Source: Halobellus captivus (GTDB lineage Archaea; Halobacteriota; Halobacteria; Halobacteriales; Haloferacaceae). Taken from it: a stretch of DNA of 64,000 bases. The translations under genes and the position numbers were made by a program. Location of the stretch: assembly GCF_003697845.1 (NCBI RefSeq), contig NZ_RDQE01000008.1, forward strand, positions 124,001 to 188,000. The letters are read 5' to 3'. Shown here piece by piece: positions 5,858 through 7,557 of this stretch; within the stretch, counting starts at the first letter, position 1, and each line of letters opens with the position of its first letter. Below the pieces are notes generated by a model, which made no database searches, was not told the origin of the DNA, and saw only the letters and a program-made list of their open reading frames with translations.

Positions 5858-7079
5858 ATGACAGACATCACGGAGGCTTCGTCGGACACCCCGGCGGATC
5901 GAGTTCTTCCAGGGCACGATAGCTTCTAACATCGAAATCGGTCCTGTACGGATCTTCGACACGACGTTACGAGACGGCGAACAGTCACCACGTACTTCGT
6001 TCAGCTACGACGAGAAACGAGAGATAGCGGCGACGCTGGACGACATGGGGACCCACGTCATCGAGGCAGGGTTCCCGGTGAACTCCGAGGCGGAGTTCGA
6101 GGCCGTGAGCGATATCGCCGCCGCGACGGACACGACCGTCTGTGGGCTCGCCCGCGTCGTCGAGGGCGACATCGACGCCGCCATCGACTCGGGCGTGGAG
6201 ATGGTCCACGTGTTCGTCTCGACGAGCGACGTCCAACTCGAGGACTCCATGCACGCGACGCGCATGGAGGCGAAGGAACGCGCGGTCGACGCCGTCGAGC
6301 AGGTGAAAGACGCCGGCGTCGAGTGCATGTTCTCCCCGATGGACGCCACGCGGACCGACCCCGACTACCTGACGGAGATCGTCGAGGCGGTCAGCGATGC
6401 CGGCACCGACTGGATCAACATCCCGGACACGTGCGGCGTCGCGATGCCGACGAGCTTCGGGAAGACCGTGAAGGCGGTCGTCGAGGCGACGGACGCCCGC
6501 GTCGACGTCCACACCCACGACGACTTCGGGATGGCCGCGGCGAACGCGGTCATGGGCTTCGAGAACGGCGCGGAGCAGGCGCAGGTGTCGGTCAACGGGA
6601 TCGGCGAGCGCGCCGGCAACGCGGCCTACGAGGAGGTCGTGATGGCGGTCGAGTCGGTGTACGGCGTCGACACCGGCATCGACACGACCCAGATCACGAA
6701 GCTGGCCCGGATCGTCGAGGACGCCTCGGACATCCCGGTGCCGGCGAACAAGCCCGTCACCGGCCGGAACGCGTTCGCCCACGAGTCGGGCATCCACGCC
6801 GCGGGCGTGATCGAGAACGCGGACACGTTCGAGACGGGCGTGATGACGCCCGAGATGGTCGGTGCGGAACGCGAGTTCGTGCTCGGCAAGCACACGGGCA
6901 CCCACAGCGTGCGGAAGCACCTGGTCGAGGCCGGCTTCGACCCCAGCGACGGGGAGGTCCGCGAGATCACGAAGCGGGTCAAGGAGTACGGCGCCGGCAA
7001 GCGGCAGGTTACCGCCGGCGACGTCGAGCGGTTCGCCCGCGAGGCCGGCATCGAGCGCGAGGAGGAGGTCCGGATCTGA
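5858..7079 (+). CDS. leuA: 2-isopropylmalate synthase-type enzyme, with 5' frameshift
   Basis: The product condenses acetyl-CoA with 2-oxoisovalerate, the first step to leucine. The body is clear: VRIFDTTLRDGEQSP (catalytic Arg-Asp), DVHTHDDFGMAAANA (metal HxH), NGIGERAGNAA, and HESGIHAAGVIEN. The frame holding it is open from 5862 but has no ATG, GTG or TTG before the catalytic motif. ATG 5858, well placed behind a TATA box, reads 23 codons in another frame to TAA 5927. Homology-like sequence upstream of the barrel (IEFFQGTIASN) is in the leuA frame, so a small indel around 5897-5906 is inferred. Starting at ATG 6045 would delete the catalytic motif. The protein ends near 400 residues without the C-terminal leucine-feedback domain. 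Citramalate synthase is an alternative. Confidence 0.75.
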
Positions 7080-7294: not shown

Positions 7295-7300
7295 TTTATA
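7295..7300 (+). promoter_or_regulatory. TATA box of the ilv/leu operon leader
   Basis: TTTATA within GGAATTTATAGG, 26-31 bases upstream of the ATG at 7326. The spacing places transcription initiation at or next to that ATG, so the leader peptide would be read from a leaderless 5' end. Confidence 0.6.
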
Positions 7301-7325
7301 GGCGGGTCGCGTGGGTTCGGATCGA

Positions 7326-7400
7326 ATGCGACGCTCACGTCCCACGGTCGCGGAGGACGGTCGGACGGGAGCCGTCGCCGTAGCGATCGTAGGGGTTTGA
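7326..7400 (+). CDS. putative ilv leader peptide (24 aa)
   Basis: The frame encodes MRRSRPTVAEDGRTG followed by AVAVAIVGV and TGA. The last nine residues contain four Val, one Ile, three Ala and one Gly, the amino acids whose synthesis the downstream ilvBNC genes serve. Three of those four Val codons are GTA, GTA and GTT, which are uncommon in this GC-rich genome. The ATG lies at the position expected for the transcription start set by the TATA box at 7295-7300. The TGA (7398-7400) sits in the six-base loop of the 7389-7408 hairpin, so a ribosome at the end of the peptide would cover the 5' arm. Function as an attenuation leader is inference. Confidence 0.5.
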   Translation: MRRSRPTVAEDGRTGAVAVAIVGV

Positions 7401-7557
7401 TCCCCTACAGTACTACTTCCTCACCGACCCGACGTATCGACGGACGCCGGCGCGCCGCCGATCCCGAACCGCCGACCACCGACGGCGGCCCGACGGCGCG
7501 ACCCGCGTCCCGATCGATCGACGCTCGCATCCGAGAGACACCCACACACCACACACG

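Follow-up and report, generated by a model that had tools for sequence, protein, structure and literature searches.

A leader ORF and stop-enclosing hairpin upstream of ilvB and valS in Halobacteria: a likely ribosome-mediated sensor of tRNA charging

The window, by which we mean the whole 64,000-nucleotide stretch of Halobellus captivus DNA analyzed here, carries ilvB, coding for the large subunit of acetolactate synthase, and 5' of it a compact element in which a TATA box, a short open reading frame (ORF), a hairpin and a pyrimidine-rich tract follow one another:

7295..7300, + strand: TATA box (TTTATA) of the leader/ilvB promoter, 31 nt 5' of the ATG, a spacing common to the loci of the genus
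7326..7400, + strand: leader ORF MRRSRPTVAEDGRTGAVAVAIVGV and its stop; ATG at 7326-7328, 24 codons plus stop, C-terminus AVAVAIVGV
7386..7391, + strand: core, putatively regulatory codons ATC (Ile) and GTA (Val), directly 5' of the stem and at its base
7389..7395, + strand: 5' arm GTAGGGG, made of the Val-Gly codons and base 1 of the last sense codon; the GGGG is invariant
7396..7401, + strand: loop TTTGAT, enclosing the stop codon TGA at 7398-7400
7402..7408, + strand: 3' arm CCCCTAC, the partner of 7389-7395 in a perfect 7-bp stem
7401..7425, + strand: pyrimidine-rich, G-poor tract 3' of the stop, with a single G at 7410 in the window genome
7558..9390, + strand: ilvB, the first gene of the putatively controlled set, 3' of the leader

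In Haloferax volcanii, a transposon mutant of ilvB1 is auxotrophic for Val, Leu and Ile (PMC4300041). The terminal Val codons of the window leader are, in order, GTC, GTA, GTA and GTT. Across the six ORF segments of the operon (n = 230 Val codons) GTC is used 158 times, GTG 66, GTT 5 and GTA once; GTA and GTT are thus rare there, at 1/230 and 5/230. A sequence-only reading of the window had claimed a TATA box at 7295-7300, a 24-codon ORF from ATG 7326 ending AVAVAIVGV-TGA, a perfect 7-bp GTAGGGG/CCCCTAC hairpin with the TGA in its loop, and the rarity of GTA, GTA and GTT among the four terminal Val codons; all of these held, the ORF and the hairpin exactly. Its further claim that the transcript starts at ATG 7326 rests on the spacing of the TATA box and remains an inference for us too, in the absence of transcript data. 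Translation of the leader ORF, from a leaderless mRNA, is likewise inferred without ribosome data, and we consider it likely. As a separate observation, the segment following the hairpin (CTTCCTCACCGACNCGACGYAYCGACGAACGC; 7409-7450 in the window) is strongly conserved within the genus and reaches past the G-free tract.

The genus of the window is represented by 52 sampled genomes, from which 30 loci were fetched first. All 30 have the TATA box and an ORF of 23-24 codons whose stop falls in the loop, and their C-termini resemble one another closely, most being A-V-A-x-I-I-V-G-V (in locus L012 the 24-codon ORF reflects a refined choice of ORF, an earlier ATG being also present). The class set combined a family sample (60 genomes, 28 genera), a class sample (59 genomes, 31 genera) and the remaining genus loci. 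It comprises 144 ilvB upstream regions, of which 139 have GTAGGGG, then a stop in frame and, beyond the stop, CCC(C). In these leaders the start codon usually lies about 30 nt 3' of the TATA box, and the stop between the arms, which is part of the motif definition and hence present in 139/139, is TAG in 68, TAA in 45 and TGA in 26. Outside the genus the leaders are mostly 15-62 codons long and their frame at the hairpin is always the same. The peptides end mainly in I-V-G-V, I-V-G-A or I-V-G-A-x before the stop; across families we found no conserved N-terminal sequence, and peptide conservation between families is limited to the last 4-5 residues. The sequence-only reading had held that a lack of conservation of the ORF or stem in relatives would refute it. 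The opposite was found, as the C-terminus, the rare Ile and Val codons, the stop in the loop and the paired stem are all conserved across the class.

This conservation does not depend on the search motif alone. A motif-blind detector, requiring a TATA-like motif 5' of an ATG or GTG, an ORF of 8-70 codons and a stop that a perfect stem of 5 bp or more encloses in its loop, matches 138/144 ilvB upstream regions against 9/720 dinucleotide shuffles; raising the minimum stem length to 7 bp gives 87/144 and 1/720. The genomes are related, so these counts are not independent. The five regions without the motif are individually accounted for. Two are second ilvB paralogs that keep the plan of ATT-ATT-GGG, stop and paired stem with other bases: L119 reads ATT ATT GGG GTT CAC GCC TAG with a GGGGTTC/GAACCCC stem, and L141 reads ATT ATT GGG GCT TCC TAC TAG with a GGGGCT/AGCCCC stem. 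L132 has a diverged leader whose stop lies 3' of a short hairpin; in L147 (family f5) leuA adjoins ilvB with no leader between them; and in L115 a leuA-type element, described below, replaces the GTAGGGG leader. Beyond the class, none of 27 ilvB upstream regions from other families of the phylum carries the module, and the detector gave two chance-like matches there; of the seven closest ilvB loci outside the class, most have leuA directly 5' of ilvB.

The conserved core is an Ile-Val codon pair just 5' of the GGG, rather than the run of Val codons to which the sequence-only reading had drawn attention. Of the 139 ilvB leaders, 134 have Ile before the V-G, three have Val, and one each has Leu and Arg. 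The Val codon is GTA in 139/139, although GTA makes up just 0.4% of the 3591 Val codons in the ilvB genes; the Ile codon is ATT in 90/134 and ATC in 44/134, with ATT accounting for 5.6% of Ile codons in the same genes. The invariance of GTA is in part a matter of construction, as GTA belongs to the search motif; only 5/144 regions failed that motif, and two of these, the paralogs, have ATT at that position, again a branched-chain codon. GTA is also retained where it does not pair: of the 139 loci, 74 show full outward GTA-TAC pairing beyond the GGGG stem, 43 show it in part and 22 not at all. In the 30 nt before the GTA, the leader frame encodes Ile at 17.8% and Val at 16.0% of codons, with Ile at 0.0-0.1% in the other two frames, and within the genus the third positions of these codons are the most variable (mean entropy 0.70 versus 0.51 and 0.46).

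In an alignment of 107 sequences the stem pairs in 83.9% of cells, and every slid register stays at or below 58%. There are 13 double-change cells, a number that none of 500 shuffles reaches; the covariation score of 0.069 is reached by 3/500 shuffles, and one slid register scores similarly (0.076). The innermost pair is C-G in 72 sequences and U-A in 10, and in the valS locus L236 (see below) the stem is re-paired as AGGGCC/GGCCCT. Three GC pairs never vary and are uninformative on covariation. The stem thus covaries modestly, with the caveat that the shuffles do not correct for relatedness. The arms are 5, 6 or 8 nt apart in most loci. With the stem overlapping the last codons and the loop holding the stop, a ribosome translating the leader would stand in the way of the hairpin.

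A further feature that the sequence-only reading had missed is the tract 3' of the stop, which is rich in C and U, G making up 3.2% of its first ten nucleotides and 1.9% of the next ten. The longest G-free run after the stop has a median of 23 nt versus 6 in control windows, of which 0.14% reach 23. There is no T-run, the longest stretch of T in the 57 nt 3' of the stop being 1-5 and mostly 2, and the criterion for an intrinsic terminator is unmet. Seven single-sequence folds gave no shared alternative structure and yielded only large genus-specific helices, such as that of ATGCGACGG with CCGTCGC in Halorubrum-like loci. Given the absence of both a T-run and a consistent alternative structure in these seven folds, a classical terminator/antiterminator switch is not shown. 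No Rfam model, the T-box models included, matched at the gathering threshold or at E<=1. In Halorubrum-like loci, the start of the leader (GCGACGG) can pair with the Ala-Val-Ala codons (CCGTCGC), at positions corresponding to about 7326-7334 and 7369-7377 of the window. This pairing is imperfect in the window and in some relatives, and may be an extra switch helix in that genus.

A second copy of the module, also missed by the sequence-only reading, lies upstream of valS, where its codons are Val-only. The strict pattern GTAGGGGC-N1-5-TAGCCCC occurs in 86/145 genomes of the class, many of which have two copies, and a reversed control pattern is rare. When 20 pattern stretches were fetched, 16 lay before a valyl-tRNA synthetase gene, identified as an open frame containing HMGH, and three before ilvB; the remaining one, L223, was rejected as a chance match having no in-frame stop in its loop. 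In all, the leader is found 5' of valS in 25/26 loci (families f3, f4, f7 and others), of which eight were picked for matching, so this is not an estimate of prevalence. In the window's own family, f1, 0/12 valS upstream regions read have it. Because valS promoters have weak TATA boxes, behind which the detector misses most leaders, the valS counts come from the motif search instead. The residue before V-G in the 25 valS leaders is F in 17, V in five, R in two, L in one and never Ile. Ile at this position in 0/25 valS leaders versus 134/139 ilvB leaders (Fisher, 6e-25, uncorrected for relatedness) means that the codons match the amino acid of the downstream gene. Applied to other genes, the detector gave 2/30 for ileS, 1/30 for trpC and 0/30 for ilvD, with no sign of the module; the trpC match, a single ORF containing Trp, was judged incidental. 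From these near-zero counts, obtained with a detector of low sensitivity at weak TATA boxes, it appears that the module is not general to amino-acid genes. Separately, 15 valS loci (L224-L237 and L253) carry a second block, TTCGACGGATGTATTG, just 3' of the leader hairpin; it stands in no constant frame with valS and could be an element of the RNA or of the DNA.

The promoter-ORF-hairpin geometry, the position of the stop, the codon choice, the modestly covarying stem and the presence of Ile at ilvB and not at valS are shown by these comparisons. Our reading of them, to which we give a probability of about 0.72, is that the module is a ribosome-mediated sensor of charged tRNA-Val and tRNA-Ile; here we infer, without expression data, that the leader is translated and that tRNA charging is what it senses, as well as which way the switch works and what its effector step is. 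In this proposal, transcription would begin at or next to the ATG, so that a ribosome could load at once and translate the short leader ending Ile-Val-Gly-Val/Ala-stop. Footprint reasoning places a ribosome whose A site holds ATT/ATC or GTA on top of the 5' arm and loop. When charged tRNA-Ile or tRNA-Val is scarce, the ribosome would wait at the ATT/ATC-GTA codons, covering these elements and blocking the hairpin, and the transcript would be extended into, or protected for, ilvBNC-leuCDB. When charged tRNA is ample, the ribosome would reach the stop and leave, upon which the hairpin would close, the pyrimidine tract would be exposed and expression would fall. A ribosome that has reached the stop sits on both arms, so closing would require its departure; for this reason we assign the closed hairpin to the OFF state and the stalled ribosome to the ON state. 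This direction, itself inferred, suits both a biosynthetic operon and valS.

The fall in expression would most likely occur via premature termination of the FttA/aCPSF1 type or via mRNA decay, with the pyrimidine tract as a candidate site of action for the termination or decay factor. FttA (aCPSF1) is an archaeal analog of Rho that cleaves nascent RNA, prefers U-rich RNA and has been hypothesized to compete with the coupled ribosome (PMC11616081), and archaeal polarity is likely due to it (PMC12548453). It remains only a candidate, because the tract is richer in C than in U. The likeness to bacterial ilv leaders and the Val/Ile-sensing reading that the sequence-only reading put forward are supported, notably by the class-wide conservation of the ORF C-terminus and stem; attenuation in the sense of premature termination is still an inference, as expression data are lacking and neither a T-run nor a consistent alternative fold was seen. 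A result that counts against sensing is that mutation of the candidate regulatory codons in the ilvB leader of Streptomyces coelicolor was without effect (PMC1262725). We lean, with reserve, towards a bolder reading in which these leaders form an archaeal tRNA-charging attenuator regulon across Halobacteria, responding to Ile- and Val-tRNA at ilvB and to Val-tRNA at valS, probably leaderless, without an intrinsic terminator and probably acting via FttA-type termination or decay, and possibly the first such to be described.

Several other explanations can be considered. The palindrome could be a DNA operator just 3' of the start site, bound by a regulator responsive to branched-chain amino acids, with the ORF being incidental. 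The element is indeed palindromic and promoter-proximal, and, as of 2021, the regulation known in archaea operated at the recruitment step (PMC8448881). However, the constant half-site spacing and symmetric conservation expected of a palindromic operator are not seen: the spacing of the arms varies, which a dimer would tolerate poorly, and the arms are unequally conserved, GTA being invariant and TAC not. In addition, an in-frame stop of any of three kinds lies between the arms, and the rare codons fit the amino acid of the gene at both ilvB and valS. Hence, we regard an operator as unlikely. Equally doubtful is an arrest peptide, in which the nascent IVGA/V or FVGA end would stall the ribosome in response to free Val or Ile rather than tRNA charging. 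The near-invariant V-G-(A/V)-stop end is in its favor, and TnaC provides an example of stalling at a stop codon. Against it, only the last 4-5 residues are conserved between families and arrest peptides usually need a longer motif; the V-G-A is moreover dictated by the GTAGGGGC arm, and exact conservation of rare codons is unexpected of a peptide signal. Least probable of all is a functional microprotein with a hairpin that merely protects the mRNA; the ORF is conserved and probably translated, but its length varies mostly over 15-62 codons, its N-terminus is unconserved across families and the conservation resides in codons and RNA.

The closest competitor retains a leader ribosome sensing Val and Ile and places its effect on translation or mRNA stability instead of transcription elongation, with release of the ribosome exposing or hiding a nuclease or initiation site. 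It overlaps the main reading, whose effector step stays undecided. It is favored by the lack of an intrinsic-terminator T-run and by FttA/aCPSF1 being itself a ribonuclease (PMC11616081). Also listed for it is the position of the ilvB start about 140-210 nt 3' of the hairpin in the genus, beyond the range of 30-40 nt reported for coupling by termination-reinitiation (PMC12548453). On the other side, we noticed no conserved structure over the ilvB start, and nothing found distinguishes this alternative from transcriptional attenuation; on balance we put it well below an even chance.

The neighboring leuA presents a distinct problem of reading frame. In the window, its own frame has no ATG, GTG or TTG 5' of the TTLRDGE motif (regions 5858-5929 and 5900-5911). 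The promoter-proximal ATG at 5858 opens a 23-codon frame (MTDITEASSDTPADRVLPGHDSF and stop), to which the LeuA frame is +1, and the junction reads CGA GTT CTT CCA, with CTT and CCA as rare codons. In all 40 haloarchaeal leuA loci read, a promoter-proximal ATG about 100 nt before TTLRDGE opens a short non-LeuA frame; LeuA is in phase 1 to it in 38/40 automatically and in L180 and L200 by eye, using a nearer ATG in the same phase. Many of these loci, the window included, have a LeuA frame without ATG, GTG or TTG from the preceding in-frame stop to TTLRDGE, and the junction CG[A/G]GTTCTTC is present in 39/40. This suggests, as a possibility inferred from sequence, a class-wide programmed +1 frameshift at leuA. 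The start-codon problem was already noted by Pfeiffer and Dyall-Smith, who proposed slippage with a possible link to leucine (PMC8305020). Upstream of ilvB in L115/L203 (G060) lies a copy of the leuA-type element (CCGGCGGATCGAGTTCTTCC, PADRVLP), whose stop falls within a GAGCCG/CGGCTC hairpin; we detected no LeuA motif in that 2.2-kb stretch. L115 had been considered as an ilvB leader stem of wholly new sequence, which was set aside as it carries this element.

If the sensor reading is right, a leader-peptide sensor found throughout the class would contribute a layer of control coupled to translation and, together with the possible leuA +1 frameshift, would place haloarchaeal branched-chain amino-acid synthesis under codon-reading control. 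With a leader probably translated from the extreme 5' end and a switch without a bacterial terminator, two questions would become directly testable in Haloferax: whether transcription-translation coupling controls elongation in archaea, and whether FttA acts close to promoters at sites under regulation. Nature offers a codon swap in the valS and ilvB leaders, which differ at the Ile codon.

Measured against bacterial-type attenuators, the module has its short ORF where expected, 3' of the promoter and 5' of the first gene (motif present in 139/144 loci), the regulatory codons for the amino acid of the product (Ile and Val at ilvB; Val, and no Ile there, at valS) and rare synonymous codons at the sensing position, a frequent and not obligatory trait. 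It lacks the intrinsic-terminator feature, and we accordingly call it an attenuator-like variant and not a member of the bacterial class. We found no report of leader-peptide control of haloarchaeal ilvB, or of such a sensor in Archaea, in the open-license literature searched; subscription papers and preprints were outside its scope, and novelty is provisional. The leuA2 start-site anomaly (Pfeiffer and Dyall-Smith 2021, PMC8305020) concerns a neighboring pathway gene with proposed translational control by leucine, but the proposed slippage there leads into leuA itself, without a separate leader ORF and hairpin. The ilv, leu and trp attenuators of E. coli similarly set rare end-product codons beside an RNA hairpin, but have a three-stem switch, an intrinsic terminator, an SD-initiated leader and the bacterial RNA polymerase. 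With Streptomyces leuS attenuators and actinobacterial ileS T-boxes (PMC1262725), the valS copy would share tRNA-charging control of a synthetase gene; T-boxes, however, read uncharged tRNA directly and have no ORF, and the haloarchaeal element has no Rfam T-box match. The Corynebacterium ilvB-II motif, or ilvBNC attenuator (PMC10272879, PMC11857589), is comparable in its upstream ORF rich in branched-chain codons about 150 nt 5' of ilvB, ORF lengths divisible by three and a reporter that is high in minimal medium; it differs in having a two-stem terminator/antiterminator with a U-run once per genome, as against the single haloarchaeal hairpin that recurs at valS. Nearest in kind, alongside this Corynebacterium motif, are the ilvB leaders of actinobacteria (Seliverstov et al. 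2005, PMC1262725), which likewise have a short ORF with Ile, Val and Leu codons 5' of ilvB that overlaps a candidate hairpin. Their poly-U runs have no haloarchaeal counterpart, and the haloarchaeal leaders are set apart from them by the TATA promoter, the probably leaderless ORF, the single Ile-Val pair in place of codon runs, the G-free tract and the copy at valS.
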